From IMG/VR virus record IMGVR_UViG_3300043446_004613, positions 124,001-188,000 of that record: DNA of 64,000 nucleotides. One strand, 5' to 3'. How positions within the stretch are numbered: the first letter of the stretch is position 1; each line of letters begins with the position of its first letter. Positions 988 through 39,813 of the stretch are shown here, in pieces. The notes below the pieces were generated by a model. The model worked only from the letters and a program-made list of their open reading frames with translations, had not been told where the DNA came from and searched no databases. The translations under genes were made by a program, and so were the position numbers. This stretch comes from a virus.

Positions 988-1635
988 GTGACTAAGAATC
1001 CGCATCTGAAGAAATTACTCGGCGAATCGGAACACGACGAGGTTCACCGCTACGCCGATGCTATGCAGCAAACGCCGCAGAACGGACGCGAAGCATACCC
1101 AGATCAGCCTGAGCTTGCCTCTGCGTTTGATCGGCTGCATTTGCAGGATAAGTCGTTGGACGAACTGCGCGACATGGTTGCCAATCAAGCGCTAAACGGC
1201 TTTGAGCTTGAGGTCGTAAACAACGAGATCGAGTTTTTGAGCGGACTCTCTGAAAATCTCGAAGATCAGCAGAATATGCCCGCACGTCCAAAAGACGAGA
1301 CGCAGGACGACACGCCGATCAAGCCGAAAAGTAACAAGGCGGCCAGCTTCGGAAACGTCAACGTGGAACTGGCTCCGAGCGTGCGGGAATTGATCGGTCT
1401 TTGGAAGCGCGGCGAGCACATGGCAGTTGCCGCCCGCTTGATGTTCACGCCAGCGAGCTATGTCGATTTCATTGCGTTATCTTTTACCATTGGTCAAGCT
1501 GGTGCAATGGAATTGGCTGGTTTACTGGATGAACTTTCAGATACCGAAAATATGCGACCGCCGTCCACCCCGCCAGAGTACAAAGAATTGCTTCAAAAAG
1601 TCGCAGGAGCAAACGCAGAGGAAAACGTTATATGA
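988..1635 (+). CDS. tagged candidate internal capsid protein, 215 aa
   Basis: The N-terminus is MTKNPHLKKLLGESE, with an L-G-E site after residue 13 that fits gp21-type prohead protease cleavage. The middle is acidic and low in complexity. The C-terminal half (from about residue 112, NVNVELAPSVRELIGLWKRG) looks folded and helical. The GTG start at 988 is supported by the 4-nt spacing from a GTAGTTA heptamer. It overlaps the next gene by 4 nt, and two more tagged proteins follow in the same operon just upstream of the protease gene. I do not recognise the family; the internal-protein role is inferred from tag and position. Confidence 0.6.
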   Translation: MTKNPHLKKLLGESEHDEVHRYADAMQQTPQNGREAYPDQPELASAFDRLHLQDKSLDELRDMVANQALNGFELEVVNNEIEFLSGLSENLEDQQNMPARPKDETQDDTPIKPKSNKAASFGNVNVELAPSVRELIGLWKRGEHMAVAARLMFTPASYVDFIALSFTIGQAGAMELAGLLDELSDTENMRPPSTPPEYKELLQKVAGANAEENVI

Positions 1636-2399
1636 GCAGCAACCCCCTTTTAGCCCGCGCCCTTGGTGAATCAACCGGCGATGTCGTGCCGGTTCTCGCC
1701 AATGTACCGCGCAGCACGCAACGCAGTCGTCTTGAGCGCCTGCGCCAGCGCCGTGATCCAGAAGGTATTGAATCCAAAAATGAAAGCCATCGGCGCGACA
1801 TCTCGCGCCTGATCGGTGAATCTGAAACCGATGAGCAGCAAAAGCGCAGCGATAGCGTTATCCCGGACGAAGCAGAGGAGATTGATAAGAGCGCCTACAC
1901 TGTAGGCAAGCCGATTGATCCGCCCAAGAAAGTCGTGCAGGAACCGTCGCATCCAACAGCTGATAAGGAGAAGTACATTACTCCGGCATCTGCTTTGACT
2001 GCTCCCGATGCGACACCGCAGGCCACGCAGCCGCTAGACGCTTCACAGGTACCGATGCCCGGCGCATCCGGGCCTCAGCGATTTAGCGCATCCGACCTTG
2101 AAAAAGCCCCGGCAGCCCCAGCAGCCGGAAAAACGACAGCTGAAATCGATCCGCTGTCTGTACTACTTGGTCATGGTCGGGTACCGCGCCCTGCGCCCGA
2201 AATGCAAACGTTCCAGCAGGCAGGCAACATCAGCACTGAAGAAGCCCAGCGCATGGTTGGCGTACAGCCGATGCTTGCCGAGGAGGCCAAATCTCGAGCA
2301 GCAGCGGCGCTTCAACAGGGCGGCGTACCGATGCCTGAACCGAGCGCGCCAACAGACGGAAAGCGCGTTTTGGAAGCTTTCCGTCGTTTTGTCGTATGA
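1632..2399 (+). CDS. Pro/Ala-rich protein with two tag-like sites, 255 aa
   Basis: Starts MSSNPLLARALGEST, with an LGE site at residue 13. A second copy of the pattern, SRLIGESETDE, occurs near residue 60. The first 70 residues may therefore be two joined tags, or a targeting region cleaved twice. The rest is rich in Pro, Ala, Gln and Glu and probably disordered. It is coupled to its neighbours by ATGA overlaps on both sides. No known family is recognised. Confidence 0.55.
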   Translation: MSSNPLLARALGESTGDVVPVLANVPRSTQRSRLERLRQRRDPEGIESKNESHRRDISRLIGESETDEQQKRSDSVIPDEAEEIDKSAYTVGKPIDPPKKVVQEPSHPTADKEKYITPASALTAPDATPQATQPLDASQVPMPGASGPQRFSASDLEKAPAAPAAGKTTAEIDPLSVLLGHGRVPRPAPEMQTFQQAGNISTEEAQRMVGVQPMLAEEAKSRAAAALQQGGVPMPEPSAPTDGKRVLEAFRRFVV

Positions 2400-2911
2400 A
2401 AGCCGATGTCATCGCGTTTAAGCTGCTAGAGGCTGACGGCGAATACGTACCAGAAGGGTATGAGTTGCTGGACACGGTTGACGTTGGCGACTACACGCTG
2501 AAGCTGTGGCAGGGTGAAGGGCACGTTCGCGGCGTTGCCGTTAAATTTTACGAAATTAGCCTGAACGCTCACGGGCGCTCTTTTGCTCCTGAAGAGCAAA
2601 ATAAGAAGTTTGCGACAACGATGGCGATGCCTGCGCGTAGCGTTATGCGCGTTGTAGGTGAATGGATCAAACGCTACGGCGGTCTGTACATTGGTAGCTA
2701 TTCTCCGCGAAAGCTGGCTACATACCACCACATGTTTAAGCGCTATCTTCCCCAGCTGAAGGTCAGCGATCCGTTCGCTCCGTTCGATGAGTGCGAAGGT
2801 AAACCCGAGTATTTCACCGTAAACAGCATGCCATCAGCTTTAGAACGTGCGCTCGCTGAAGCAATAAAACGCTACGATGCGCAAGTTAAACGCGGGCAAG
2901 ATCAGCGATGA
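2396..2911 (+). CDS. tagged candidate internal capsid protein, 171 aa
   Basis: Starts MKADVIAFKLLEADGE, with an L-L-E site at residue 12. After the tag it looks like a globular mixed alpha/beta protein with several Tyr/Trp residues (YTLKLWQGEGHVRG, RYGGLYIGSYSPRK). The start overlaps the previous stop as ATGA. It is third in a row of tagged genes ahead of the prohead protease. The family is unknown. Confidence 0.55.
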   Translation: MKADVIAFKLLEADGEYVPEGYELLDTVDVGDYTLKLWQGEGHVRGVAVKFYEISLNAHGRSFAPEEQNKKFATTMAMPARSVMRVVGEWIKRYGGLYIGSYSPRKLATYHHMFKRYLPQLKVSDPFAPFDECEGKPEYFTVNSMPSALERALAEAIKRYDAQVKRGQDQR

Positions 2912-3483: not shown

Positions 3484-5178
3484 ATGCGTTGTTACGTACG
3501 CAGAATTTCTTGTATGCGACAATACCTTATTGAAGGCATAACGGGCGCGTTTCCGTTCATTGTGGATCGGAACAAAACTCCGGTAACGGAGAGTCGCCCC
3601 AACGGCGGTAGCTTCACCCGCATCCCCGGACGTTTCAGCGTTTGCGACTGTGTCAACGGCAACAATCGCCGTTACAGCAAGCGTGTCTGGGAAAAGAACC
3701 TCACTGAAGGCTCAGTCCTACAGGAGTCCATCAAGCGCAACGCTGCTTTCGGCCTCCTCGAACACCCCAAAGACGGTATTGTCACTCTTCTCTCTCCGAT
3801 TTCCCACCACGTTACCAAAGCAGAAATGGTTGAAACCCGCGATGCCTCCGGCAAGCCGGTTTATGAAGTCTGCGGCGAAATCGTCATTTTCAATACCGAT
3901 GAAGGCCGCAAGTTGACCGCTTTGATCGAAGGCGGCTACAACCCGCTCGTCTCCAGCCGTGGTTACGGCTCTCTGAACAAAGCCAGCGACGGTGTTGATG
4001 AAGTCGCTGAGGACTTTGTCTGCGAAGGTTGGGACGTGGTAATCAAGCCGAGCTTTGAGCAGGCTGAACTGACTCCGGCCCGCAGTACTTCTACGGCCAC
4101 TATGGCCACCCCCGTCGCTCCTAACCCGCAAGCTGAATCTAAACAGCCTGCGCCCGCTACAGTGACGGAAACCAAACAAAATTTGAAGGAGTCGACGCCT
4201 TCAACTGGTGCGGATAAACCGACCAGCGTAACCACAAACAAAAATAACACTATGGAACTGAACACATTGAAGTCGCAGATCGAGAGCCTCCGCTCCGCTG
4301 ATGCTGCGAAACCCAATCGGTTCGCTGAGTCCATGACGAAAGTCGAGGAACTGCACCAGCAGGTTGCTGAGTGGGCCGCTGCCGATCCCAAACGTTCTTG
4401 GGAAGCGCAGAAGCTCCACAAGTCCCTCGACTCCATCGGCGAAGGACTCACTGCGACCATTAACCGTCCCGCTGACACCGCTCGTAAGCTCAGCGAGAAC
4501 AACAACAAGCTGCTTCGCGTTATCGACGCCGTCGCCAAGACTGCCGTCACTTACAAGAAGAAGCTCGGCGAAGCCCTCAAATCCGACGGCAGCCGCGTCA
4601 AGATGATCGAAGAACTGACCCGTCGCGGTCAGGGCTGGCAGCGTATCGCCGAGAGCCGTAAGCAAAAGCTCATGGTTCAGGAAAAAGATTTCGATACCGC
4701 GTGCGAAGCGCTCGACATCATGGCCCAGCGCTATCACGAAGACGTGACCGAACTCGGTCGTCGCCTCATCGTCCTTGAATTCAAGGAGAAGGCCCAGACG
4801 CCTGAAATCCAGAAGTCGCTCAAAGAAGCGACCCGTCTGCGTCACATCGTTACCATCCGCGAACGGCTGGAAGGTAAAAAGAAACCCGTCTCTGAAACCT
4901 CTGCGGAAGGCAAGCAGCCCAAAGAAGGCGAGCAGCCTAGCCACGAAGGCATCAAGGACGAGAAGCAAAAGGGCGCTGGCAGCCCTGATGCTGGCAAGGT
5001 TGCTGAAGAACCCGGCAAGGTGAAAACCGAGTCGAAGGCTCCCGGCGACGCGGCCAAAAAGACTCAGACCGTTTCTGAGTCACAGGTGCTGAAGACGGAT
5101 CGCGCTGACATCAGTGTCCGCTCGGTCAATGAATCGGTGGAACTGGTGCGTCGGCTTAGCACCGCACCCGCCAAGTAA
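3484..5178 (+). CDS. prohead protease (T4 gp21-like) fused to a scaffold domain
   Basis: A protein of 564 aa. Residues about 15-200 match the gp21/S78-type prohead protease: VNGNNRRYSKRVW, then FGLLEHPKDG with the likely catalytic His94, then NPLVSSRGYGSL with the likely nucleophile Ser157 or Ser158. Residues about 200-255 are a Pro/Thr linker. From residue 257 on the protein is charged and helical, as expected of a gp22-like core scaffold. gp21 and gp22 are separate genes in T4, so the fusion is notable. Its own start holds an L-I-E site (MRQYLIEG, Met11). A Shine-Dalgarno-like AGGGAG precedes ATG 3484; ATG 3514 is the alternative. It acts in the prohead, cutting scaffold, capsid and internal proteins at (L/I)xE. 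Confidence 0.85.
   Translation: MRCYVRRISCMRQYLIEGITGAFPFIVDRNKTPVTESRPNGGSFTRIPGRFSVCDCVNGNNRRYSKRVWEKNLTEGSVLQESIKRNAAFGLLEHPKDGIVTLLSPISHHVTKAEMVETRDASGKPVYEVCGEIVIFNTDEGRKLTALIEGGYNPLVSSRGYGSLNKASDGVDEVAEDFVCEGWDVVIKPSFEQAELTPARSTSTATMATPVAPNPQAESKQPAPATVTETKQNLKESTPSTGADKPTSVTTNKNNTMELNTLKSQIESLRSADAAKPNRFAESMTKVEELHQQVAEWAAADPKRSWEAQKLHKSLDSIGEGLTATINRPADTARKLSENNNKLLRVIDAVAKTAVTYKKKLGEALKSDGSRVKMIEELTRRGQGWQRIAESRKQKLMVQEKDFDTACEALDIMAQRYHEDVTELGRRLIVLEFKEKAQTPEIQKSLKEATRLRHIVTIRERLEGKKKPVSETSAEGKQPKEGEQPSHEGIKDEKQKGAGSPDAGKVAEEPGKVKTESKAPGDAAKKTQTVSESQVLKTDRADISVRSVNESVELVRRLSTAPAK
4252..5178 (+). CDS. possible separate scaffold protein from an internal start
   Basis: Met257 of the protease-scaffold gene is preceded by an A/C-rich, unstructured stretch (ACAAACAAAAATAACACT) much like the leader before the capsid gene. 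Initiation here would make a 308-aa scaffold lacking the protease domain, as lambda Nu3 is made inside gene C. The product is helical and rich in Lys, Glu and Ala (MELNTLKSQIESLRSADAAK at its start), typical of scaffolds. Free scaffold in excess over protease is what assembly would need. The internal start is inferred, not proven. Confidence 0.45.
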   Translation: MELNTLKSQIESLRSADAAKPNRFAESMTKVEELHQQVAEWAAADPKRSWEAQKLHKSLDSIGEGLTATINRPADTARKLSENNNKLLRVIDAVAKTAVTYKKKLGEALKSDGSRVKMIEELTRRGQGWQRIAESRKQKLMVQEKDFDTACEALDIMAQRYHEDVTELGRRLIVLEFKEKAQTPEIQKSLKEATRLRHIVTIRERLEGKKKPVSETSAEGKQPKEGEQPSHEGIKDEKQKGAGSPDAGKVAEEPGKVKTESKAPGDAAKKTQTVSESQVLKTDRADISVRSVNESVELVRRLSTAPAK

Positions 5179-5215: not shown

Positions 5216-6679
5216 ATGGTAATTCTCACTGAAAGTGGAAGACCGGTATTGGCGTCTGATGGCGGGCACATCTCCCGTTTCATGGACGTCTTGGAGTGGG
5301 GCTATCGCCTCGCTGAAACATCGTTGGGCATCCCTGAAAAGAACTCACGCGGCCTTTGGGAAGCGCGGGGCTGGAAGGAATTTGTCCAACACATGCCTGA
5401 GCACAAGCGTCCTTTGGCCGCAATCATGCTCGAAAACTGCCGCAGCCGTTTTGGCCGCCTCGATGAAGTGACTCGTACCACGTCACTCGGCACGTTCGAT
5501 AAATGGATTTTCCCCATTATCGCCAACATGTCCGAGAACGACGTGATCGACCAGCTTGTCGCGCTCCAGCCGATGGCAGGCCCGGTGAGCCAGATCGTCT
5601 ACATGGACATCGTCACTGGCCGTCGCAAAGGCCGTACTCCCGCAGGTGCCCCGATGTGGCGTGCCTTGCAGGGCGCGGTTGACCGCGACGACGACGGCGA
5701 TGAAGTCGTTCAGGACGAAACCGGCACTGCGTCGAGCGGTGGCGTGTTCATCCTCGAATGGACGCCTATCCGTCCCGGTACCGTCACAGGTTCCTACAGC
5801 ACCGTGAACTTTGCTGACGACGGCAACGGTCAGATCATCAACGTAGCCACCAACGCCGCGATCGGTACAGTCGTGTACCAAGGCACTGGCGCTGGCACCG
5901 TGACGATCGCCGGGGCAGCCAACACGGACTACTCCGTGACCTACGCGTTCAATTCTGAAGGCAACCTCGCCATTCAGGATTACGAAATGAAGCTTTCCAG
6001 CACTCCGGTGACTGCGAAAGTGATGAAGCTCAAGACCCTGTGGTCTGAGGAAGCCGACCAGAACCTTCAGGCGATGTACAACATCAAGGCCGAAAGCGTT
6101 CTGCTCAACGCGCTCACCAACGCCCTCCAGTATCAGAAACACCGCCAAGTGATCTTCGATCTCCGCGCCAAAGCTGATGCCGGTTTCGTTGTCTGGGATG
6201 CGATCGCTCCGTCTGGTGTCAACTACCAGACCCACAAGTTCAGCATCATCGACGCGTTCGAGACTGCATCGAACTTCATCTACGGCGCTACGAACATGGT
6301 TGCCGGTAACTGGTTGCTGCTTGGCCTCCAAGCCGCTACCGTGGTTGCCACGCTGCCGCAGTTCGTGCCGAAGAACAACCGCGTGCAGATGCAGGGTATC
6401 ACCTACATCGGCGATCTTGGCAACAAGAAGGTCTTCGCTGACCCGCACTATCCGACTAACGAGTTCCTCGTCGGTCACAAGGGTGACCAGTTCCTGACCA
6501 CCGGCTACGTGTTGGCCGAATATCAGAAGCTGTACACCACCCCTGACGTGGTGCTGCCGGACTTCATCCATCAACGTGGCTTTGCGACGAGCTTCGCCCG
6601 GAAGATGGTTAACAGCAAGATGTACTGCCGTGGCCTCGTTCAGAATAGTCCAACGGCGTTCGGCCAAACGATTGGCTAA
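5216..6679 (+). CDS. major capsid protein (T4 gp23-like, HK97 fold)
   Basis: A protein of 487 aa. The stretch from about residue 98 (WIFPIIANMSENDVIDQ, then VALQPMAGPVSQIVYMD) is the conserved gp23 block. A Gly/Thr-rich insertion near residues 180-250 looks like a surface domain. The N-terminal 60 residues include VLEWGYRLAETSLG, where L-A-E could be the protease cut that removes the gp23 delta peptide. It lies just after protease-scaffold and ends in a strong terminator, so it can be expressed at very high level. It forms the capsid shell. Confidence 0.9.
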   Translation: MVILTESGRPVLASDGGHISRFMDVLEWGYRLAETSLGIPEKNSRGLWEARGWKEFVQHMPEHKRPLAAIMLENCRSRFGRLDEVTRTTSLGTFDKWIFPIIANMSENDVIDQLVALQPMAGPVSQIVYMDIVTGRRKGRTPAGAPMWRALQGAVDRDDDGDEVVQDETGTASSGGVFILEWTPIRPGTVTGSYSTVNFADDGNGQIINVATNAAIGTVVYQGTGAGTVTIAGAANTDYSVTYAFNSEGNLAIQDYEMKLSSTPVTAKVMKLKTLWSEEADQNLQAMYNIKAESVLLNALTNALQYQKHRQVIFDLRAKADAGFVVWDAIAPSGVNYQTHKFSIIDAFETASNFIYGATNMVAGNWLLLGLQAATVVATLPQFVPKNNRVQMQGITYIGDLGNKKVFADPHYPTNEFLVGHKGDQFLTTGYVLAEYQKLYTTPDVVLPDFIHQRGFATSFARKMVNSKMYCRGLVQNSPTAFGQTIG

Positions 6680-6698: not shown

Positions 6699-6727
6699 AA
6701 ACCCCGCAGGAAACTGCGGGGTTTTTT
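6699..6727 (+). terminator. Rho-independent terminator after the capsid gene
   Basis: A perfect 8-bp stem CCCCGCAG/CTGCGGGG (6702-6709 with 6714-6721), GAAA loop, and a T-run at 6722-6727. A-T pairs extend the stem. It is placed 20 nt after the capsid stop. Confidence 0.9.
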
Positions 6728-6763
6728 GTTGCTTTATTTTGCTAACTAGCTAAAAGTAAGCTG

Positions 6764-6890: not shown

Positions 6891-7268
6891 ATGCTATTTG
6901 AACCGACGGCCACCAACATCACCAAGCGCTACTTTGTAGACCGCGATGGCGTGCCGACATCCCGGATGCAGAACCGGCCCGGCATGGGCCACTTTGAGAT
7001 CGCGCAGTCTGTTGTAAATCTTGATCCGAATACTGATCTGTACCAGCAGATGTTTGCTTTGAAATACCTGCGCGTAGGCGAAGATGCGGCGAGCAATACG
7101 CTGTACGTCGACGCTCCTGTCAGCAGCGCGGATAAGCTCACTACGCGTCAACGGCGCTGGCTAAAGGACAAACAAGCGGAAGGCTGGAAAGTCGAGTTCA
7201 ACAATCGCTCGTTTGTTGAGGCCCGCGACACCCGCGCCACGCAGGTTGTAAAGCAGCTGCTCGGGTAG
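6891..7268 (+). CDS. hypothetical protein with C-terminal tag-like end, 125 aa
   Basis: MLFEPTATNITKRYFVDRDG at the start, and a C-terminus ending ATQVVKQLLG just before the stop. The central part is soluble, with a basic helix (LTTRQRRWLKDKQAEGWKVE). The last ten residues follow the same V-V-x-x-L-L pattern that other proteins here carry at their N-terminus. It is the first gene after the capsid terminator. Family unknown. Confidence 0.55.
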   Translation: MLFEPTATNITKRYFVDRDGVPTSRMQNRPGMGHFEIAQSVVNLDPNTDLYQQMFALKYLRVGEDAASNTLYVDAPVSSADKLTTRQRRWLKDKQAEGWKVEFNNRSFVEARDTRATQVVKQLLG

Positions 7269-7275: not shown

Positions 7276-7518
7276 ATGCTGCATAAACGTGCCAATCAAA
7301 TCCGTACCCGGATCACGCAAATTGAACGTGAATTAGACAACGACCACGATGGTCAGCCTACCGCGCCGCTGACTCGCGAACTCGAAGACCTGCGTAACGA
7401 ACTCGCTTTCATTGAGGCCGACATCCCGCGTCGCACAAATGGTCGTTTTTTGGAAGGCCAGAACCCGCATAATACGACTCCTGCTGGGGCGCTGGTTTCC
7501 AAGATGCTTGATGCCTGA
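7276..7518 (+). CDS. small coiled-coil protein with C-terminal tag, 80 aa
   Basis: Residues 1-50 form a charged helix with a coiled-coil look (NQIRTRITQIERELDNDHDG). The protein ends AGALVSKMLDA, a C-terminal version of the shared tag. The start is fixed by the 4-nt gap to the heptamer. It ends 5 nt before the next gene. Function unknown; a packaged internal protein is possible. Confidence 0.5.
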   Translation: MLHKRANQIRTRITQIERELDNDHDGQPTAPLTRELEDLRNELAFIEADIPRRTNGRFLEGQNPHNTTPAGALVSKMLDA

Positions 7519-7523
7519 ATGAT

Positions 7524-7563
7524 ATGCTCTCCGCCGCTTTCATTGTAAACCGCCTGCTTGAAA
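7524..7563 (+). repeat. tag-coding repeat, copy 1
   Basis: Matches 8003-8042 at 38 of 40 positions, with the first 26 nt identical. It encodes MLSAAFIV(N/K)RLLE. Confidence 0.9.
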
Positions 7564-8027
7564 CCAGCGTCAATGACCATGTTCTGGTAAAAAGCAAAGG
7601 CTTGGTGCTGCTTAAAATGTCCATGATTGCGCAGTACTTGCTTGATAAGAATCGTTACCCTGATCTGCCTGAAGCTGCCGTGCAGGCTGAAATCAAAAGT
7701 GCCCGTTTGACGGCGGCTCAAGTCGACAACATTCTGGATGACGACGACGAAAAAGCGGAACGATCCGAAGCCAAAGCAGACGGTACAATCGATCAGTACT
7801 GGCAATCCAAGTGTGAAGATATTGCTGATAGCGTTGCTAACGACATTCGCAGAAGTGCCGGAATTAAAGAACCGACGTGGCAACAATGGAAGCAGGGCAA
7901 CGCTCACTATTTTAAGACTCCGTCCGGTGAAATCCTCACCGCGCAAACCGCAGAAGAGTACTGGGCAATTCAGGCCAGAATCGGAAAACAACGCGTTACT
8001 TTATGCTCTCCGCCGCTTTCATTGTAA
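7524..8027 (+). CDS. tagged candidate internal capsid protein, 167 aa
   Basis: Starts MLSAAFIVNRLLETS, with an L-L-E site at residue 13. The body is acidic with a DDDDEKAERSEAK stretch and a C-terminal part with Trp residues (EPTWQQWKQGNAHYFKT). Its first 40 nt are almost identical to those of the next gene, although the rest of the two proteins is unrelated. It overlaps that gene by 25 nt in another frame, so its last residues (CSPPLSL) are simply the next gene's tag read out of frame. Confidence 0.6.
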   Translation: MLSAAFIVNRLLETSVNDHVLVKSKGLVLLKMSMIAQYLLDKNRYPDLPEAAVQAEIKSARLTAAQVDNILDDDDEKAERSEAKADGTIDQYWQSKCEDIADSVANDIRRSAGIKEPTWQQWKQGNAHYFKTPSGEILTAQTAEEYWAIQARIGKQRVTLCSPPLSL

Positions 8028-8042
8028 AGCGCCTGCTCGAAA
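8003..8042 (+). repeat. tag-coding repeat, copy 2
   Basis: Second copy of the 40-nt element at 7524-7563. Similarity stops right after the LLE codons. Confidence 0.9.
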
Positions 8043-8500
8043 ACGACGATGATGACATCGGTCGCTATATCGACGCAGCAGCCCACCAGCTACGCTACGG
8101 CGCAAAGATGCTGGCAACACAACCGACATCTGCTGATCCTGTAACGTATACGCATTTTGATTGCTGGTCTGACACAGGCGACGACGAAGATGATGGCGGC
8201 GAAGTTTGGAACTGGGACAGCGATCAAGCCGTAGCTCAGGTAGGTGTGCTGTGCGACGAATGGGTGACCATACCCGGCGTTGATGCGGATAAAATTCGAC
8301 AGATACAGCGCAATTATCTAGCACTGGGTATCGAAGGGCCTGCCGACTATGGTTGTCCCGGACAGGCCGATGCGTTCAACGAGTTTGCTAAAGTTTTTAT
8401 TGAAGCTGGCTACAGTGTCTACCTAAGTGACAGCATGTTTGAAGTTTACGATCCCGAAGAATTATCGGAAGAGGACAACGTATCGGATGATGAGCTATGA
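8003..8500 (+). CDS. tagged candidate internal capsid protein, 165 aa
   Basis: Starts MLSAAFIVKRLLENDDDD, with an L-L-E site at residue 13. The body is strongly acidic (GDDEDDGGEVWNWDSD near the middle, DPEELSEEDNVSDDEL at the end). Outside the tag it shares nothing with the 7524 product. An acidic packaged protein could act as a DNA mimic or counter-charge, but that is only a suggestion. It overlaps the next start by 4 nt (ATGA). Confidence 0.6.
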   Translation: MLSAAFIVKRLLENDDDDIGRYIDAAAHQLRYGAKMLATQPTSADPVTYTHFDCWSDTGDDEDDGGEVWNWDSDQAVAQVGVLCDEWVTIPGVDADKIRQIQRNYLALGIEGPADYGCPGQADAFNEFAKVFIEAGYSVYLSDSMFEVYDPEELSEEDNVSDDEL

Positions 8501-8904
8501 GCGGCTGCAACCAACCATCAGCTTTACCCGGAAGCCAGCGCACTGTTCCATGTGGAACAAGTGTAGACGGTCGCATCTTCCTATGCTCCAACTGCCACAT
8601 GAGCGAGTCCGGCCCGCGTAAAGCCAGCCGAATCGTAGAATCTCTCTTGGAGGATGAAGGTGAACTTAACGCGCAAAGCTACGTCGATGAATTACCTCGC
8701 ATCATCGACGACTGGCATGATCTTGCCGGTGATGACTGGATGGAATGGATGGAGATAGTGCGTGAGATCGATGGCGACCTGCCTGAAGAAGAACAGATGA
8801 CCAGCAAGGAAGCCGATCGGCTGGCTGGCCAGATTTATCGGGCGCACAACGGTGAACTACAGGCAGCGCGGGCAGCTTTTGGATTGGAAACCGGTGCCAG
8901 CTAA
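8497..8904 (+). CDS. zinc-finger-like N-terminus joined to a tagged acidic protein
   Basis: The full frame is 135 aa. Residues 1-35 hold Cys4, Cys19 and a CSNC pair, like half of a zinc ribbon. ATG 8599 (MSESGPRKASRIVESLLEDE) gives a protein with the standard tag and an L-L-E site at residue 18 of that form. There is no stop between the parts, so this is either a fusion or a gene starting at 8599 with a long shadow upstream. The ATGA overlap at 8497 favours translation of the whole frame. The C-terminal part is helical and acidic. Confidence 0.5.
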   Translation: MSGCNQPSALPGSQRTVPCGTSVDGRIFLCSNCHMSESGPRKASRIVESLLEDEGELNAQSYVDELPRIIDDWHDLAGDDWMEWMEIVREIDGDLPEEEQMTSKEADRLAGQIYRAHNGELQAARAAFGLETGAS

Positions 8905-9161: not shown

Positions 9162-9821
9162 ATGCCACAGTCCAAAGCCCATAGCGTAGTTTCGCACCTG
9201 CTTGAAGCGATGGAGGTTCGGCTGGACGGTTACGATTACCCGGTGGCTGTATACTTGATTGATCTGAAGGATAAGCAGACCGTCAAAAGCGGGTACGCTT
9301 ATTTCTCCCGGCCCTACCGTGACTGGCCGATCCCGGAGTCTTTCACGTACTTGATCGGCACAGAGAAACCTGCCCGGAAGTCCATCGCGATCCAAGCGAT
9401 TATCAACTTTGTAGACGGCCCGGCGACTGCTGCCAAGGTTACCGACGTGGACGAAGACTATAAGGCGTTTCTGCGTGACTATTACAAGCCATCGCAGCTG
9501 GACGACTACAAGTACTTTTCCAACTGTGCGCTGCAATGGGCGAAGCAGAACAAAATCATGCGTCCGGGGTACATAATGCAAGACGAACTGGACAGTTACA
9601 CGTACCCTATTCCAGAGCTACAGGCGCTTGTCAAATGGAGTTCTGACAACTGGCGCATGTCCGACCACTTTGGTTTGTTCCAAGGCAACTCTGGCGCTAC
9701 CCATGTCAGACTCACGCTCTACATCAGTGTAGACTACGCCGGTATACCGGACGAGCCGGATGCCGAAGCAGTCGAACGGTTGCTTCCTTACTTGGGGAAT
9801 GAAGGAGGGCGCAATGGCTGA
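9162..9821 (+). CDS. tagged candidate internal capsid protein, 219 aa
   Basis: The ATG at 9162 gives MPQSKAHSVVSHLLEAMEVR, with an L-L-E site at residue 15. The body appears globular with many aromatic residues (YAYFSRPYRDWPIPESFTYL). The frame is open upstream to 9021, but that stretch overlaps the previous gene and lacks a tag, so 9162 is preferred. It overlaps the next gene by 8 nt. Family unknown. Confidence 0.6.
   Translation: MPQSKAHSVVSHLLEAMEVRLDGYDYPVAVYLIDLKDKQTVKSGYAYFSRPYRDWPIPESFTYLIGTEKPARKSIAIQAIINFVDGPATAAKVTDVDEDYKAFLRDYYKPSQLDDYKYFSNCALQWAKQNKIMRPGYIMQDELDSYTYPIPELQALVKWSSDNWRMSDHFGLFQGNSGATHVRLTLYISVDYAGIPDEPDAEAVERLLPYLGNEGGRNG
9802..9808 (+). promoter_or_regulatory. strong Shine-Dalgarno site (AAGGAGG)
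   Basis: AAGGAGG five nt before ATG 9814. It shows that the host ribosome uses classical Shine-Dalgarno pairing, which makes its absence at many other starts meaningful. Confidence 0.8.
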
Positions 9822-10166: not shown

Positions 10167-11114
10167 TTATTCCGGCTTCCAGTTTTTCAACGAGTGTTCG
10201 AGCGCTTCTTCTACGCTACGAACTTTGATACCTGTAGATTTCAATTTAGAAACATCCATGATGCAATTGGAGCGCGGCGTCTTAGCGGCGACTTTGTAAA
10301 ACTCATCGTCATTCGCCCAGAACTCAAATTTCCGCGCGGGCTTCAGGTGCTTTTCAATGAGTGCTACAACGTGCCGCGTGGTGACATAGCCTTCATTGGT
10401 GAGGTTGTAAACGCCGAACGGGGCGCGGCGTTCCCATAAATCCAGACAGATGCTCGCGAACTCGGCGCGGTGCGAAATGGAATTTACGTTTTCGTAAGCC
10501 TTCACATAACGCTGCACTTTGCTCAAGTAATTGCGTTTATTGTCAAATTCATCGAACGGAATCCGCAATCGCCAGACGTAGCTCTGACCAATACCTGCCA
10601 TCGCTTCCTCACCCAGCGCCTTGGTGCCGCTATAAAAACTACACGGCTGGTCGCGAAAGGAAAAATTCGGAGTATCGTTTTCGGTGAAACCGAAAATAGA
10701 GGAGGATTTCTGCTCAGCCAAAGCATGCAGGTACGACTTAGTCATATCCTTCTCCACACGCATCTTTCCGTTCTCCAAAATTTTGGCTCCGCTGTAGATG
10801 CAACCAGAAGAGACGTGTCCCCACGGAATTCCCGCCGCCGCACACGCGTGAGCGATGGTCTGGGGTAGCAGCGTATTCCCGACCAGCGTGCCAGCCTTGT
10901 CCAACTCGCAGGCATCCACATTCGGTTTTCCGGTGTAACCCGCGCAGTTAGCCACAAACTCTGGCTTTTTGGCTCGCAAAAATTCCAGCAATAAATCAAA
11001 GCGGGAATAATCCACCTGACTACGCGAAAGGGTGATGAACTCTTTTTTACGACGGCGTAATTCCGTAACGAATGCTTCGCCGATATAGCCAGTGGCTCCG
11101 AGAAGTAGAATCAT
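10167..11114 (-). CDS. RmlD-like NAD(P)-dependent sugar-nucleotide reductase
   Basis: 315 aa, complete. The start MILLLGATGYIGEAF holds the GxxGxxG dinucleotide-binding loop; SSGCIYSG near residue 102 and Tyr161-x3-Lys165 (FYSGTKALGE) form the SDR catalytic set. RmlD reduces dTDP-4-dehydrorhamnose to dTDP-rhamnose. It sits between truncated rmlB and rmlA pieces on the same strand, which supports the rml assignment. It is a somewhat distant relative, so another deoxysugar reductase is possible. No promoter or Shine-Dalgarno sequence is evident. Without intact partners it would depend on the host's pathway. Confidence 0.7.
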   Translation of the reverse strand: MILLLGATGYIGEAFVTELRRRKKEFITLSRSQVDYSRFDLLLEFLRAKKPEFVANCAGYTGKPNVDACELDKAGTLVGNTLLPQTIAHACAAAGIPWGHVSSGCIYSGAKILENGKMRVEKDMTKSYLHALAEQKSSSIFGFTENDTPNFSFRDQPCSFYSGTKALGEEAMAGIGQSYVWRLRIPFDEFDNKRNYLSKVQRYVKAYENVNSISHRAEFASICLDLWERRAPFGVYNLTNEGYVTTRHVVALIEKHLKPARKFEFWANDDEFYKVAAKTPRSNCIMDVSKLKSTGIKVRSVEEALEHSLKNWKPE

Positions 11115-13886: not shown

Positions 13887-14294
13887 ATGCCTGCAAAATC
13901 TGAAAAACAGCGTAAGTTCCTAAACTGGAAATTTGGCCACAAATGGGTCAAGAACCATCACTTTGACAATCCCGGCAAACTGCCGAAGAAAGTCAAAAAG
14001 GAAGAGGCTTTGACGGCCCGTGCTATGTTTGGTCGCCTACAAGAGCGCGACGACGCGCCAAGCTTGCCCTTGGGCAAAGCCGGTCATGCGTATTCGCGCA
14101 TGGATAAGAGCGACATTATGGAGCAGCCCGGCGGTACGTCCAAGAAGTGGCACAAAAGCGTCGCGTTGCGCAAAGAGGTGACCAACCAGCAGGACGTCAA
14201 AGGCTTTCCGAGCATGGACAAGGTCGGCAAGGTGCCGCACGCCATGAAGGAAGCACTGACGTCAGCGCAGGTTGTCAGCGCGATGCTGGACTAA
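13887..14294 (+). CDS. basic small protein with C-terminal tag, 135 aa
   Basis: The N-terminus MPAKSEKQRKFLNWKFGHKW is strongly basic and resembles short MPAKS-type phage proteins of unknown role. The middle is Lys/Gly-rich. It ends ALTSAQVVSAMLD, a C-terminal version of the shared tag. A basic, tagged protein would suit packing with DNA inside the head. Its last 4 nt overlap the converging gene. Confidence 0.55.
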   Translation: MPAKSEKQRKFLNWKFGHKWVKNHHFDNPGKLPKKVKKEEALTARAMFGRLQERDDAPSLPLGKAGHAYSRMDKSDIMEQPGGTSKKWHKSVALRKEVTNQQDVKGFPSMDKVGKVPHAMKEALTSAQVVSAMLD

Positions 14295-17908: not shown

Positions 17909-19854
17909 CGCCAGCGGGCTGAACTGTATACACTCCCGGATTCGCTTACTTTCTCGACCAAAAGCACGTGGTCAGCGTAATTCGCTGCTACCGGGTTGTG
18001 ATCGACTAGAAACACAAGGATGCCGAGGCGCTGTGCTACTTCTTTCATGTAGGAATAGATGCTGTGGCAAACCTTTGGGTCTTGATGGGGCACGATCTCA
18101 TCATACCAGCGGTAACCGACACGACGTGATACCTGACCTACTTCCGAAAGGGTTTCTGCGATGATGAAGTTTGTTAGTCCGGCTTCTCCTTTCGAGCTAC
18201 CGCTCAAGTCTTTGTCCCCGAGCTTATTGTCCACTTCAATGTTCAGCTGGGCTTTCTCAAGACCGCTGGCAAGTTCACGGGTCGTGCTATAGCGCACTTC
18301 GATTGTACCGCCTGTCATGGCCGCGCTGATCCGGCGAGCTTCTTTGTTCAGCGGTGCAATCGCATCGCGCAGCACCATGTTCGGTATGCCGTACGGTGAA
18401 AAGGCCACGTTCCAGTACTCCAGAACCTTTATAGTGTCCTGATCATCGACAAGCGCCGCCGCTGCTGTTGCCAGCTTCTCTTTGGCCTGCTTCAGTGCGT
18501 CCTTGCGGTCGTTGTAGCGCACTTCGGCAGTCTTCAGCGCTGAGTCGGAAGGCCCGCTCTGCATACGGGCTGCCTCTAGCTCATAATCGCGGATTTCAGA
18601 CGTCGCCATCGCAATTCCCTGCTCCAACTCTTCAACCTGATCCGCGTAGTTTTCAACGTCAGCTTTGGCAGATAATTCCCGGTGTTTTTTGGCTACATCG
18701 CGATACTGGGTGTTAAGAGTCACGACGGTCTGCTCTGCCTTAACCCACTGTGCCTGCGCTTTTTCTGATGCTGCTTTGGCAACCTCCACGGCTTCGGCTA
18801 GTTCAACCTTACGGGCCTCGTCAATCTGACCCATAGGCCGTTTGCATGTCGGACACATACGAGCAGCGTTGACGTAGTTGCTGTATGCGGTACGTGCTTC
18901 ATGCAGGCAGATACCGGCAGCTGACCGCGCTTTGTCTAGCGGTTTACGCGCTTCTTCTGCCTGTTGAATGGCTTCCTCGATCTCGTGCATGCTGATCTCA
19001 AGCGCATGCGATTTATCGGCCCGTTCCTGCTCCATCTTGCGCAGCTGCTTGGCGATGCGGTCAATCTCGGCCTTTGCGTCTTGGATACTCTGTTTTTTAG
19101 TGTTGACGGCTTTCTCGATATTTTTGATCATGCGCTCGTTTTGGCGCACTGCCTCTTCGTAGTTTGTACGCTCTTGCGTATAAGCTGCTTTTGCAGTTGA
19201 AAGCGCGATGGCGGCCTGCTTTTCGGTGTCGAGTGCGACGCGGTGATTTGTCTCAGATTGATCCAGTGTACGACGATACTTCCCCAAAAAGCGCTTGCTG
19301 GCTTCGTGGTACTCATTCCACGGCGGTTGGCGCAGACTGGCCATTACCAGTTCAACAGAGTCTGCCTGTCCAAGTTTGTTGAACTTGATGCTGTCGCCGT
19401 CAATAAAAGCCGTCCATCCGGCAAGAAGGGGCGAAACGCCCAAAAGCTTGCTCAATTCACTGCGCGTCTGTTGAATCGTGCCGCGTTCAACCTTTTTAGA
19501 GTCATACGTGTAGCGCAAAGCTTCACCGGTTTTACTCATTTCCTTGCACTTATAGCCGGATTCGACGACTAGGGGCTTGCCGAGCAGGGTTGCCTCTACC
19601 TTGACGTAAGTATCCCCGGCTTTCTCGGAACTGAACTGTTTCAGCGACGTAAATCTGCCGTTGACGCCCAAGAGCGTACGACTGACGGCTTCGCCAATGC
19701 CGGTCTTACCGCTTCCGACAGATAGAAGCGCCCCGCCAGAGGCGTTGTTTACGCCTTGCACCAGCACCAAGCCTTTCTCTGGGAAGGTCAGGTCAACGCT
19801 GCGAAATTTCATCCAATTACGGATTGTGACTCGATCAAGTTTTAGGTCTACCAT
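17905..19854 (-). CDS. recombination endonuclease ATPase subunit (T4 gp46 / SbcC-like)
   Basis: 649 aa. Walker A GSGKT at about residues 47-51, a long coiled coil, and a zinc-hook CPTC at Cys334/Cys337 in the middle (MCPTCKRPMG). Near the C-terminus are the signature LSGSSKGEAG (LSGGE-like) and a Walker B region (YRWYDEIVP). With gp47 it forms the Mre11/Rad50-type complex that trims DNA ends for recombination-dependent replication. ATG 19854 is preferred to an upstream TTG. A GTTCTTT motif lies 7 nt before it. The partner gp47 is 32 kb away at 51336. Confidence 0.9.
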   Translation of the reverse strand: MVDLKLDRVTIRNWMKFRSVDLTFPEKGLVLVQGVNNASGGALLSVGSGKTGIGEAVSRTLLGVNGRFTSLKQFSSEKAGDTYVKVEATLLGKPLVVESGYKCKEMSKTGEALRYTYDSKKVERGTIQQTRSELSKLLGVSPLLAGWTAFIDGDSIKFNKLGQADSVELVMASLRQPPWNEYHEASKRFLGKYRRTLDQSETNHRVALDTEKQAAIALSTAKAAYTQERTNYEEAVRQNERMIKNIEKAVNTKKQSIQDAKAEIDRIAKQLRKMEQERADKSHALEISMHEIEEAIQQAEEARKPLDKARSAAGICLHEARTAYSNYVNAARMCPTCKRPMGQIDEARKVELAEAVEVAKAASEKAQAQWVKAEQTVVTLNTQYRDVAKKHRELSAKADVENYADQVEELEQGIAMATSEIRDYELEAARMQSGPSDSALKTAEVRYNDRKDALKQAKEKLATAAAALVDDQDTIKVLEYWNVAFSPYGIPNMVLRDAIAPLNKEARRISAAMTGGTIEVRYSTTRELASGLEKAQLNIEVDNKLGDKDLSGSSKGEAGLTNFIIAETLSEVGQVSRRVGYRWYDEIVPHQDPKVCHSIYSYMKEVAQRLGILVFLVDHNPVAANYADHVLLVEKVSESGSVYSSARWR

Positions 19855-19886: not shown

Positions 19887-20663
19887 ATGATACTCGCGCA
19901 CGCTATTGTTGACGTACTGCTCGAAGCCAGCCAACCGTCGGCTGGTGACGCAAAAGGTGTCTATGTTTTTGGTCGAGGATTACCGGCAAGTGGTTATCCA
20001 GCGCCCACCTTTGAAAAGCTTATTGAGCAATTTCGCGAATACGGTTTCATCGACGCAAACGTAAAAGACAGCGCTAATTTGATGAGCCAGCTGGTAAAGA
20101 CCGGGTACACTTTTATATTTAAGCGCAGCCAGAACGACATTGAAGTGATTGGACGTATTCCAGTTGAAACGTCTGCTGCGAAATACGTAGAGCAGTATCT
20201 CGGAATGGAAGATAAAACAGTCGTTCAGTATCGGCGCGATGTGTTTGCTACGCCTACAAAGATGAGCGCTGAAAAGATTTTCTCCAAAGAGGAATCTCAA
20301 GGGATGAAGCCCCTCAACAGTTCAACGCGGATTGGCATCGGCTACGAGACGGCAAAAGAAGGCATCAAAATCGTCGAAGTCCATCAGAACGGCCCAGCAG
20401 CGCAAGCTGGTCTTAAAGCGGGGATGATTCTGACTTACGCTTGGATTGATTTTGGTCAAGGTCATGGTTCTGACTGGTACAAGCTAACCTCTGAGGAAAG
20501 CCTTGCAGTAGTGCTAAGCGCAGCCCAGCCCGGAAAACCGTTGATGCTCAAAATTCTTGTTGGAGGTACCTACCAAAATTTTCCGGTAATCCCTGTCGCA
20601 AACCAGCAGGGAGGCCCACAGAAACCGCCAGCAGCCGGTTCAACCTCCGGTTCTAAACCTTGA
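19887..20663 (+). CDS. tagged PDZ-domain protein, 258 aa
   Basis: Starts MILAHAIVDVLLEASQ, with an L-L-E site at residue 13. Residues about 145-225 form a PDZ domain: IGIGYETAKEGIKIVEVHQN, then GPAAQAGLKAGMILTYAWID. PDZ domains bind C-terminal peptides and are usually part of periplasmic proteases, yet no protease domain is present. The tag suggests packaging in the head, so it might act in the host after entry or in assembly. The C-terminus is a Pro/Gly/Ser tail. It ends 1 nt before the next ATG. Confidence 0.65.
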   Translation: MILAHAIVDVLLEASQPSAGDAKGVYVFGRGLPASGYPAPTFEKLIEQFREYGFIDANVKDSANLMSQLVKTGYTFIFKRSQNDIEVIGRIPVETSAAKYVEQYLGMEDKTVVQYRRDVFATPTKMSAEKIFSKEESQGMKPLNSSTRIGIGYETAKEGIKIVEVHQNGPAAQAGLKAGMILTYAWIDFGQGHGSDWYKLTSEESLAVVLSAAQPGKPLMLKILVGGTYQNFPVIPVANQQGGPQKPPAAGSTSGSKP

Positions 20664-29614: not shown

Positions 29615-30012
29615 AAATTGACGTATACAGCGAAGCGGTACTTCGGGTGCTCCCCGAAGTACCTGATCTCCCTCTGGAGGCACCGCCTGCGGAGGGCTTC
29701 GATCTTGTCGATGTCTGCATCTGTCCGGCCTGCGGCGGCCAAGACGCCGCTGTGAAGAAAGTGGAGGATGCGGAAGTTGCTAAATGCCCACAGTGCCAGT
29801 GTGAATTCTCGCCACGCTTGGAAGCTGTATCGGCGCAAGTCATTCGCCGTATTGGTGAGCACCGTGCCCGGCGCATGAGCCGCTTCCTTGAGTCATTGCC
29901 GTTGAATCCACCGCCGGGTGTAAATCCAAAAGATTACTCACTTTTCCGTAAAATCGTCGATACTGAGCCTTTGGCTGTTGAAAACCCTGAATCCGAACTT
30001 GAAAATGAATAA
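29611..30012 (+). CDS. zinc-ribbon protein, 133 aa
   Basis: GTG start; MKIDVYSEAVLRVLPEVPDL, then two Cys pairs (ICPACGGQ near residue 38 and KCPQCQCEF near residue 58) that form a zinc ribbon. The C-terminal part is a basic helix (AQVIRRIGEHRARRMSRFLE) and an acidic tail. The position after the tube suggests a helper of tail assembly, or a DNA-binding protein read from the same message. Family unknown. Confidence 0.5.
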   Translation: MKIDVYSEAVLRVLPEVPDLPLEAPPAEGFDLVDVCICPACGGQDAAVKKVEDAEVAKCPQCQCEFSPRLEAVSAQVIRRIGEHRARRMSRFLESLPLNPPPGVNPKDYSLFRKIVDTEPLAVENPESELENE

Positions 30013-30781
30013 ACTTATCGAAGCTGCTGTTGTTGAACCGCAGTACAGCAAAACAGAGCGTGAATTTGATCCTCGTCATCTCATGAGCAAGCTAGATGCT
30101 ATACATCGCCGCTTTGTAGATGAGCGCGTAGCTGGCTTTACGACTCCTGAAGGTGTCACTCACCCACCCTGTTCACGTGAAGAGGCTGAAGCTCGTTGGG
30201 CTAAAGCGGAGCAGGCCTTTATGAACGCGCTTTCAGGAAACGTTGCACCTGAGCACCGTGAAAACAGTAAAAGTTTGCAGCATAAGCTGGGACTTACCCG
30301 GCCTAAGTTAACAGGCGCGATTTACCGCGATGATCCAACCGTTCCAGACACGGAACCAGAAACTGACTGGGAAAGCTACGAAAAATCGTGGCATAAGCAG
30401 GAAAGTAACGTGAGCGCTGTCGTGCGTACGCTTGTAACCGAAGCGATCGATATGCCTACGCCCGAGTGGGAAATAGATAAACATTTTTTTGATCAGGCAC
30501 TGCACAGTATCCGCAGCCGCTTTGTAGATGAGCGCGTATCTGGTTTTATGACGCCTGACGGTGTCAAACATCCGCCGGTTTCGCGTGAAGAGGCGGAAGC
30601 TCGTTGGGCTAAAGCAGAGAATGTTTTCAAAAAAGCGCTTATGAATCCATCGCCAAAAGCGGCGAAAAGCTTGAAACTTGGACGTAAACTCAGCCCGTAC
30701 GAGCGCGGCATGCGCGATGAGCCTTCGCTACGTCGCGGCGAGTCAAAATCCAGTTCTATCGTGCGGAAGATGATTTCTTGA
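30005..30781 (+). CDS. tagged protein with a tandem duplicated domain, 258 aa
   Basis: ATG 30005 gives MNKLIEAAVVEPQ, with an L-I-E site at residue 6. Residues 30-77 and 166-213 are two copies of one domain (each with RFVDERV(A/S)GF, then THPP or KHPP, SREEAEARWAKAE). The end, SSSIVRKMIS, is like the C-terminal tags of other genes, so this protein may carry tags at both ends. The frame is open upstream to a TTG at 29978, but ATG 30005 overlaps the previous stop in the usual way. Function unknown. Confidence 0.6.
   Translation: MNKLIEAAVVEPQYSKTEREFDPRHLMSKLDAIHRRFVDERVAGFTTPEGVTHPPCSREEAEARWAKAEQAFMNALSGNVAPEHRENSKSLQHKLGLTRPKLTGAIYRDDPTVPDTEPETDWESYEKSWHKQESNVSAVVRTLVTEAIDMPTPEWEIDKHFFDQALHSIRSRFVDERVSGFMTPDGVKHPPVSREEAEARWAKAENVFKKALMNPSPKAAKSLKLGRKLSPYERGMRDEPSLRRGESKSSSIVRKMIS
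30092..30235 (+). repeat. duplicated protein domain, copy 1
   Basis: Codes for residues 30-77; the DNA around the RFVDER and SREEAEARWAKAE codons is also closely similar to copy 2, so the duplication is fairly recent. Confidence 0.8.
30500..30643 (+). repeat. duplicated protein domain, copy 2
   Basis: Codes for residues 166-213 of the same protein, in the same frame, 408 nt after copy 1. Confidence 0.8.
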
Positions 30782-38066: not shown

Positions 38067-39232
38067 ATCTATCCACGCCGACGCTTAACGCGCTTGCCAA
38101 GTTAAGACCGCCGTTCGCACGGTCGGCTACTTTCTTATACCCGTTCACAAACGAAGGCTTGGTAAACCCCGGAATCACTGTGCAGATGCCTGCCGGTGAG
38201 CCGGTCGTTGCCGCAGGTGCTGGAACGGTCGTTGATGTATACAGGCAGCTTCCGATCTACCAAGTTTCCGACAATACGCTGCTAAAAGCGGTGGTTTACT
38301 ACGTGGTCATTGCCCACGGCGGACTGGTGTTCACTACCGTCGCAGGTCTTTCTGGCGTGAACGTCGTTAAAGGTTCGACTGTTCAGCGCGGCCAGCGCAT
38401 CGGCACGATGTCTAGTGACAATCTGTTTGTAGCGGCTCAAATCGACAACAAGGCGATAAATCCGCTGACATTAAATAAGCACTGGGCAATCCAGAACTCG
38501 GCGTTTGTCGTCGGTCAGGGAAATAAGATTCGATTCGCTCCTGATCAACTGCTGCGCGATTTGAGTAATGGCATCGTGGTGTTCCTGCATAACGGTATAA
38601 AATATTTCAAGCAAGCAGTCGCGCCTACACCTTTTCTGGTCAATATTGCGTTTAATGGCGACGGTACAAAGACCGGGAGCGCAGCTACTGGCATCACCGC
38701 TGATGACTACTGGAACGATTATCTGCCTGAAGACTTTCAAGCACTTGTAGACTCTGCATGCTATTACCCTTACCTAGGTTCATTTGGGATACAAGCATAC
38801 GACTTCACTGCACAGCCGGTGCTCCACCTGAGCGATTACGCAGGTAATCGCAATCAGGTACTGCTTGAGCGCGTTGCTCCGATGCTTTCGGCAGCAAATA
38901 GCGGTTTGAGTTGGGATGCTATGCTTGCCCGCTGGATTGGTGGTTATCTCGGGCCAGTACCCTACGAAAATATCTTTCGCCTGCGTAACGTTCCACCGGG
39001 AACGTATACACTTTACCTGTACGCTAATGCAGGAACGCTTGGCAGCGCCAGCACGTTTTACGTGTCAATCAACAGCGGTACGCCGACAGTATTGACCAAC
39101 AATCCTGTGCTGACACCCGCTTTCATCGAACACTACAACTACGTAAAAATTGATGTTACGCTTGCACGCAACGACGCCCTCACAATCAAGACAATCGGTT
39201 ATCTGTCAGGATTGCAGCTTCAGCGGATTTAG
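38063..39232 (+). CDS. tail protein with a degenerate M23 (LytM-like) domain, 389 aa
   Basis: Residues 20-130 follow the LytM/M23 fold: QMPAGEPVVAAGAGTVVDVY, then YYVVIAHGGLVFTTVAGLSG and KGSTVQRGQRIGTMSS. The usual H-x-H of the active site is absent (VAGLS where YAHLS is normal), so it is probably a binding or structural version, not an active peptidase. The C-terminal half is beta-rich (LRNVPPGTYTLYLYANAGTL) and could bind glycans. It overlaps both neighbours by 4 nt. Confidence 0.6.
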   Translation: MNLSTPTLNALAKLRPPFARSATFLYPFTNEGLVNPGITVQMPAGEPVVAAGAGTVVDVYRQLPIYQVSDNTLLKAVVYYVVIAHGGLVFTTVAGLSGVNVVKGSTVQRGQRIGTMSSDNLFVAAQIDNKAINPLTLNKHWAIQNSAFVVGQGNKIRFAPDQLLRDLSNGIVVFLHNGIKYFKQAVAPTPFLVNIAFNGDGTKTGSAATGITADDYWNDYLPEDFQALVDSACYYPYLGSFGIQAYDFTAQPVLHLSDYAGNRNQVLLERVAPMLSAANSGLSWDAMLARWIGGYLGPVPYENIFRLRNVPPGTYTLYLYANAGTLGSASTFYVSINSGTPTVLTNNPVLTPAFIEHYNYVKIDVTLARNDALTIKTIGYLSGLQLQRI

Positions 39233-39813
39233 ACCGTAGCGCCGATGTCAATCAGGCTGCCTTGGCTACGATCATGGAAAAACGGTGACGGAAAAATCAC
39301 CGCACTATTGAACTTGCGCCAAAAATAAAGATCATCAGGGAACCCGTCGAATTCTACCGAGCGAAAGCGCAGCGCCGCTTCTGGTGTTATCCAGTATGCC
39401 ATGCAGCAGCCGTTTATGCCGGACGATTTATCATTCGTGTAAAGGCCGTAACCGAATCCAAGATCAGCAACCTTACTGTACGCATTTACATCGAATTCGC
39501 GCCCGTGGAGGCTGATAAAATCGAATCGGTAGAGGTGGGAAAAAGCCTCAAGCGCTATCCTTTGCCAGTGGTTACTGATAGGCACGGCATCGTCTTCAAA
39601 AACCAAGGCCGGGCCAACGGCTTCCGCTAGAGCGTCTTGGTGCCCGCGAAAAGCCCGCAGGTGACCTACCTTGTTTGGCACGATATTGTGCTGGTCGACC
39701 CACCCATCCGGCAGTTCGTAGTCAGCGCAGAAATGCTGGTTGTAGTTCAAGCCGCGCAGGTGCGGCAAAATAAGCGCTTTGCGCTTTGTGTTTGCGACAA
39801 CGATTATGTTCAT
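39229..39813 (-). CDS. GT25-like glycosyltransferase, 194 aa
   Basis: The start MNIIVVANTKRKALILPHLR and GHLRAFRGHQDALAEAVGPA, then LVFEDDAVPISNHW, match the GT25 (LPS galactosyltransferase type) pattern with the EDD metal motif. It is the last of six overlapping minus-strand genes between 39.2 and 44.6 kb. Confidence 0.7.
   Translation of the reverse strand: MNIIVVANTKRKALILPHLRGLNYNQHFCADYELPDGWVDQHNIVPNKVGHLRAFRGHQDALAEAVGPALVFEDDAVPISNHWQRIALEAFSHLYRFDFISLHGREFDVNAYSKVADLGFGYGLYTNDKSSGINGCCMAYWITPEAALRFRSVEFDGFPDDLYFWRKFNSAVIFPSPFFHDRSQGSLIDIGATV

Follow-up and report, generated by a model that had tools for sequence, protein, structure and literature searches.

A recently copied tag on two neighbouring phage genes belongs to a peptide family, used at either protein terminus, with features of a cleavable capsid-targeting signal

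Proteins that phage T4 packages in its head and injects act against host defences within the first minutes. Four of its proteins (IPI, IPII, IPIII and Alt) carry the N-terminal targeting peptide known as the CTS, a 10-residue sequence that is sufficient for packaging and is removed by gp21 (Mullaney and Black 1996; PMC9026906), and the CTS has already been suggested to let T4-like phages take in varied proteins (PMC9026906). Alt also has a 63-residue C-terminal propeptide cut at LTE-619, which sets a precedent, in one protein, for a gp21 site near the C-terminus (PMC5694885). In SPN3US (gp45, gp47, gp50, gp53 and gp54) and in phiKZ, the N-terminal propeptides of head proteins are cut after xxE; most SPN3US propeptides exceed 100 aa in length, and the 15 identical N-terminal residues of gp53 and gp54 stand on homologous paralogues (PMC5694885). 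In phage P1, the N-terminal residues of DarB suffice to send a reporter into the capsid, and no consensus common to the Dar proteins was found, so they offer no transferable tag family (PMC9024508). At the DNA level the closest precedent is again T4, in which, as we checked on the sequence, the adjacent genes ipII and ipIII are identical at 32 of 33 nt of CTS DNA and at 19 of 25 nt upstream, and differ in the sequence behind.

We analysed a window of 64,000 nucleotides, bases 124001-188000 of a 211,113-bp virus record (Table 1). Its gp23-type major capsid protein (MCP) gene adjoins a gp21-type prohead protease gene, the arrangement of a T4-type head module, and the ORFs at 988 and 1632 share an NPxLxxLLGE↓S start motif related to the layout of the protease sites (↓, putative cut). 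The MCP is mostly 59-96% identical to its counterparts at 37 IMG/VR loci and about 24-30% identical to those of named phages, and a PDB sequence search with it gave no match; in INPHARED, where the best capsid identity is about 30%, the lineage of this phage has no close isolate. For the tag scan, further stretches both of the contigs that hold the 37 loci and of the window's own genome were read. Amid the structural genes of the window lie ORFs resembling a sugar-nucleotide dehydratase/reductase and several glycosyl- and methyltransferases (10167-11114 and 39229-44598, minus strand), and in three relatives ORFs with low-complexity, repeat-like translations are found just 3' of the capsid gene (L018:11482-14376, L008:2577-3500 and L034:11514-12480).

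Table 1. Head genes, tagged ORFs and tags in the window (↓, putative protease cut; "end", stop codon follows)
Feature	Coordinates	Strand	Details
Conserved ORF just 5' of protease, probable prohead core protein	988..1635	+	start ...NPHLKKLLGE↓S
Conserved ORF, probable prohead core protein	1632..2399	+	start ...NPLLARALGE↓S; second site SRLIGE↓S
N-terminal tag MK-ADVIAFKLLE↓A of ORF 2396-2911	2396..2431	+	homologues in L003, L010, L026, L019 tagged too
T4 gp21-type prohead protease with fused scaffold-like region rich in E↓S sites	3484..5178	+	phrog_207 E=1.8e-31; C-terminus SVNE↓SVELVRRLSTAPAK
gp23-type major capsid protein	5216..6679	+	phrog_138 E=3.2e-27; 37 IMG/VR relatives
C-terminal tag ATQVVKQLLG (end) of ORF 6891-7268	7236..7268	+	FVE↓A site 5 residues upstream
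C-terminal tag AGALVSKMLDA (end) of ORF 7276-7518	7483..7518	+	FLE↓G site upstream
ORF of 167 aa with tag copy 1	7524..8027	+	stop in copy 2; no homologue of body found; single-sequence model mean pLDDT 60
N-terminal tag copy 1, MLS-AAFIVNRLLE↓T	7524..7562	+	38/40 nt vs copy 2; tag profile score 21.6
ORF of 165 aa with tag copy 2	8003..8500	+	acidic body, pI 4.1; no homologue found; model mean pLDDT 47.5
N-terminal tag copy 2, MLS-AAFIVKRLLE↓N	8003..8041	+	38/40 nt vs copy 1; profile score 20.8
Tag ASRIVESLLE in ORF 8497-8904	8623..8652	+	internal to longest ORF; N-terminal if start is ATG 8599
N-terminal tag MPQSK-AHSVVSHLLE↓A of ORF 9162-9821	9162..9206	+	profile match
C-terminal tag SAQVVSAMLD (end) of ORF 13887-14294	14262..14294	+	KE↓A before tag; C-tag kept in L010, L008, L019, L065
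N-terminal tag MIL-AHAIVDVLLE↓A of PDZ-domain ORF 19887-20663	19887..19925	+	relatives' homologues N-tagged too
Probable C-terminal tag SSSIVRKMIS (end) of ORF 29978-30781	30749..30781	+	GE↓S before tag; regular-expression match, not among profile matches

The starts of two neighbouring ORFs in this window are nearly the same DNA. Between 7524-7563 and 8003-8042, 38 of 40 nt are identical, with a longest run of 26; the similarity sets in one base 5' of the ATG codons (7524 and 8003) and ends just past the LLE codons. Behind the tags, 15 nt match at a near-chance level, and the 25 nt 5' of the starts are dissimilar, with no DNA in common further upstream. The sole codon differences are AAC/AAG and CTT/CTC, and the same codon is used at eight of the nine core residues shared by the two tags. 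Our recount agrees with the preliminary description, which had reported the 40-nt match and its end at the LLE codons and had called the proteins behind it unrelated: the bodies, of 154 aa (7524) and 152 aa (8003), have no mutual similarity (best BLASTP E = 2.3). Neither has a homologue in PHROGs, Pfam, INPHARED, IMG/VR or 14 related contigs; two weak matches in G001 and G002 (E 0.001-0.006) were put down to chance, and the single-sequence AlphaFold models were too poor for a fold search. As a null for the match we drew 400,000 random pairs from the same tag family with the genome's codon usage. Because these pairs agree at 20.8±2.7 of 39 nt, at 35 at most and never at 36 or more, and the observed pair agrees at 37, the repeat is copied DNA. 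No simulated pair contained a 26-nt run, and the observed pair is the closest at the codon level among 781 within-genome tag pairs. The 40-mer has only two copies in the 211-kb genome when up to three mismatches are allowed, and the 26-mer is absent from every other IMG/VR contig.

Both copies are members of a family with the consensus M-x-A-x-x-[IV]-[VA]-x-x-L-L-E, which occurs at either terminus. A nine-position profile that omits the last position (P1) gave 96 N-terminal and 24 C-terminal matches at a score of at least 12, against 4 and 2 in shuffled termini; its training hits came from the very contigs that were scanned, which the shuffles and control phages serve to counter, and some matches are false: at score 11, about 11 of 106 are decoys. 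The profile has no match in 136 kb of control sequence (20 kb of T4, 50 kb of SP-15 and 66 kb of distant contigs), and few or none in the more divergent relatives G008, G009, G012 and G013. About 22 genes of the 211-kb genome are tagged, on both strands and spread genome-wide beyond the head region, and genes of uncultured relatives carry the tag as well, at about one per 10 kb in G000-G005, G000 being this phage. Clustering by body sorts the 104 curated tagged ORFs into 69 groups, of which 55 have a single member; a short N-terminal peptide is thus common to unrelated proteins of one phage, with 91 N-tag candidates, and the C-tag statistics cover 27 proteins. G002 and G003, whose sequences overlap, were de-duplicated by tag. 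Enzymes of nucleotide metabolism and of DNA and RNA are among the tagged bodies, and thymidylate kinase, NUDIX and ParE-like toxin bodies are not obvious virion proteins. A tblastn search with two tagged families found no tagged homologue in named isolates, and the tag is not described in the open-access literature, as far as searched.

Tags are dense around the repeat. Seven ORFs form an island between the capsid gene and ORF 9760, of which 6891 and 7276 are C-tagged and 7524, 8003 and 9162 N-tagged, 8497 contains a tag and 8939 starts with the looser variant NATIRKVIGE. Homologues of ORF 6891-7268 in L028, L005 and L060 keep both the C-tag and an FVE↓S, FVE↓T or VFE↓S site. A CxxC-type, zinc-finger-like stretch (8494-8598) stands 5' of the tag in ORF 8497, which places this tag internally unless the start is at 8599.

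Across relatives, homologous bodies differ in their tagging: some have the tag, some lack it and some have it at the opposite end. The HAD-type phosphatase starts with MRAKQLVDILLE-DKKVIAVDLDGTLA (LLE-DKKVIAVDLDGTLA) in G002 and with MDKRWIGVDLDGTLA (M-DKRWIGVDLDGTLA) in this phage; an endonuclease-like protein is C-tagged in L032 and has untagged homologues in L011, L028, L005, L014 and L019; and a putative HExxH peptidase bears its tag at the N-terminus in L028 and at the C-terminus in L072. The preliminary description had predicted that relatives would show gene bodies with a different tag or none, and this is what other members of the family show. Its proposal that the tag moves as a DNA module adding cargo to the head holds in so far as the tag is separable and was recently copied as DNA, not inherited by whole-gene descent; the cargo role is suggested by the layout considered below. 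Some ORFs combine tags and bodies in other ways. In G002 a single ORF (L069:2941-3555) consists of a body, MKES-AEQIVDRLLE and a second body, and its first part is homologous to a C-tagged G014 protein (L051:9191-9577), as though an N-tagged gene had merged with a C-tagged one at a tag common to both. An HAD-phosphatase ORF of G009 (L095, around 18994-19400) has several internal LLE tags (PTEALISHLLEDD and TEALVQALLEDG) between its segments, in the manner of a polyprotein, and of two paralogues in L005 (3064-3453 and 4510-4914) one has the full C-tag ASEIVEKLVA and the other ends in ASAVVKA, like a tag cut off.

The tag DNA was copied recently between the neighbours 7524 and 8003, we suggest by short-homology recombination or gene conversion. 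Since short-homology recombination over 2-10 bp is documented in T4 (PMC9391042), no special mobile element would be needed. As to the event itself, insertion of a tag and conversion of existing tags both fit. The end of the first gene had been read as overwritten by an inserted second copy, and its stop codon (TAA 8025-8027) does lie within that copy; insertion is one possible reading of this 25-nt overlap, since ordinary overlapping phage genes can show the like. Gene conversion between two genes that were both tagged already, rather than insertion before a new body, falls just short of an even chance in our estimate and would compete with the origin step only, not with the function. It is consistent with an island in which most genes are tagged, with a middle tag in L028 whose first half is like one neighbour and whose second half is like the other, and with upstream sequence that was not carried along with the repeat; an untagged homologue of either body would be needed to separate it from insertion. 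The ipII/ipIII pair is a direct precedent for near-identical tag DNA on adjacent genes, although the shared DNA extends upstream in T4 and starts at the ATG here. Start repeats are also found in relatives: in a trio of neighbours in L028 (5215, 5499 and 6082), two members of which are alike for 28 nt further upstream, and in a neighbour pair in L073, where the repeat takes in the acidic element that follows. Because the adjacency of tagged genes correlates only weakly with the likeness of their tags (p=0.02; 0.04 without the 7524/8003 pair), we do not claim local spread as general. Besides their tags, the 3' ends of two neighbouring tagged genes in L028 are alike at 19 of 20 nt (5792-5811 and 6711-6730).

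The placement of glutamate depends on the end at which the tag stands. It closes 69 of 91 N-terminal tags and 5 of 27 C-terminal tags (Fisher p=1e-7), and 21 of the 27 C-tagged proteins have E↓S/A/T/G at most 14 residues upstream of the tag, at a varying distance, as in FAIE↓SAQELVDLMLNG, FQVE↓SAERIVNRLLEA and, in the window, FVE↓ARDTRATQVVKQLLG. The rate of E[SATG] upstream of C-tags is four times that further upstream (23 in 378 residues against 10 in 675, p=7e-5), and the P3 residue there is not confined to Leu or Ile, unlike in T4. Because N-tags end in Glu and C-tags have E↓S/A/T/G upstream, a putative protease site lies between tag and body in both orientations. A T4 CTS with Asp at position 10 is no longer processed but is still targeted (PMC9026906), a result that fits the Asp, Gly, Asn and Ala found there in C-terminal tags, for which a cut behind the tag would be of no use. 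A site-then-tag layout of this kind also forms the C-terminus of the prohead protease (SVNE↓SVELVRRLS); 17 of 17 relatives, with identities as low as 34%, keep it as E[SA] followed by an amphipathic helix (such as INESVELVRRLS). ES dipeptides number 10 in the protease-scaffold protein against 4.2 expected, and are over-represented in most relatives. The N-terminal LWE↓A of the MCP was dropped as proof of protease specificity, as it is not kept in L029-L031.

It is conceivable, though unlikely, that the tag docks or localises proteins to a target outside the head, such as a phage-made complex or compartment, and that its terminal Glu is simply part of the helix. The nucleotide-metabolism and DNA/RNA enzymes among the tagged bodies and the scatter of tags over the whole genome would suit such a role, yet a helix Glu should persist in C-terminal tags and mostly does not, and the E↓S sites at variable distance upstream of C-tags, together with the same layout at the end of the protease, point to prohead proteolysis.

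Capsid targeting is the reading we consider probable: the tag would be a cleavable targeting peptide that works like the T4 CTS, is unrelated to it in sequence, can be used at both ends and is spread by DNA copying. The 40-nt repeat would then encode a targeting peptide of 13 residues from a family found throughout the phage. It is most likely through the amphipathic core of the peptide, A-x-x-[IV]-[VA]-x-x-L-L, that proteins dock onto the prohead core. The gp21-type protease of the phage would cut after the Glu between tag and body (LLE↓ in N-tags, xxE↓S/A/T/G in C-tags) and free the cargo inside the head, to be ejected later with the DNA; tags on homologous bodies are gained, lost and switched. 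We infer targeting, docking, cleavage and ejection from sequence; the addition of cargo to the head is well supported indirectly, by the layout of the protease sites, by the protease's own C-terminus and by the T4 precedent. We put at about even the chances of a more general model, in which a 10-residue helix acts as a terminus-independent "zip code" at either end with the protease site always between tag and cargo, and in which the copying of tag DNA onto new genes lets this lineage of uncultured T4-type jumbo phages go on taking up virion cargo, among it toxin-like, phosphoesterase and nucleotide enzymes.

Compared with the T4 CTS, the likeness lies in a short N-terminal peptide on otherwise unrelated proteins, in a Glu cleavage motif at its end (LLE-type, corresponding to the (L/I)xE of T4, with cleavage putative here) and in a gp21-type prohead protease encoded by the phage. 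The sequences are unrelated, however, and the profile finds nothing in the T4 stretch that holds ipI, ipII and ipIII (CTS MKTYQEFIAEA). T4 uses its peptide at the N-terminus only and on a handful of genes, whereas here it is also found in the 27 C-terminal cases, with the site on the other side of the tag, and on about 22 genes. The SPN3US propeptides resemble it in the cut after Glu, which is putative here, and differ in length and context, since here a tag of 10-15 aa stands on unrelated bodies; Alt has its long C-terminal propeptide on one protein, whereas a 10-residue C-terminal tag occurs here on many. Packaging by an N-terminal sequence, established for DarB, is what we would expect of the present tag, which, unlike the Dar sequences, has a consensus. 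New here are the unrelated peptide, its use at both termini with the site repositioned, the far larger number of genes and a lineage without a close INPHARED isolate.

Two other accounts of the repeat itself fare worse. By the first, 7524 and 8003 would be tandem paralogues from a whole-gene duplication, with bodies diverged past recognition and a tag held by selection; the two genes are direct neighbours and encode proteins of much the same length (167 and 165 aa), but synonymous sites are conserved in the tag, the similarity stops at its end and the bodies are alike nowhere. Tags held by selection alone drift in their codons, as in the L011 neighbours MNPLIKALTE and MNPLIKTLTE, which differ at many silent sites, and this already disfavoured account is highly improbable. 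Independent acquisition with convergence on the same peptide and the same codons, for which a short family consensus with strong position preferences might speak, is refuted in practice by the simulated null (0 of 400,000 random tag pairs at 36 or more of 39 nt).

If the targeting reading is right, a short motif picks out the proteins that are probably packaged in the head and injected, of which this genome has about 22, in a phage group without an isolate among the records searched. It would also provide sequence-level evidence for the recruitment of virion cargo through tag DNA copied onto or between unrelated genes. The C-terminal capsid tag would become a testable part, and cargo would be predictable elsewhere from the tag and the E↓S layout. 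Several tagged proteins have distinctive further features. A ParE-like toxin domain stands behind an N-terminal tag in two phages (L056:5535-5882, minus strand, and L079:7391-7795). A tagged protein with weak 2H-phosphoesterase similarity and two H-x-[TS] motifs is found at L053:3145-3552 (minus strand) and L079:7866-8240; a 2H phosphodiesterase, if packaged, would be a candidate early counter-defence enzyme. In many cases an N-tag is followed by a second, acidic element, approximately xxPDEvDPxxYv, before the unrelated body, as in L071, L073 and L069 (G002), in L054 (G000) and at 8653-8680 of the window.
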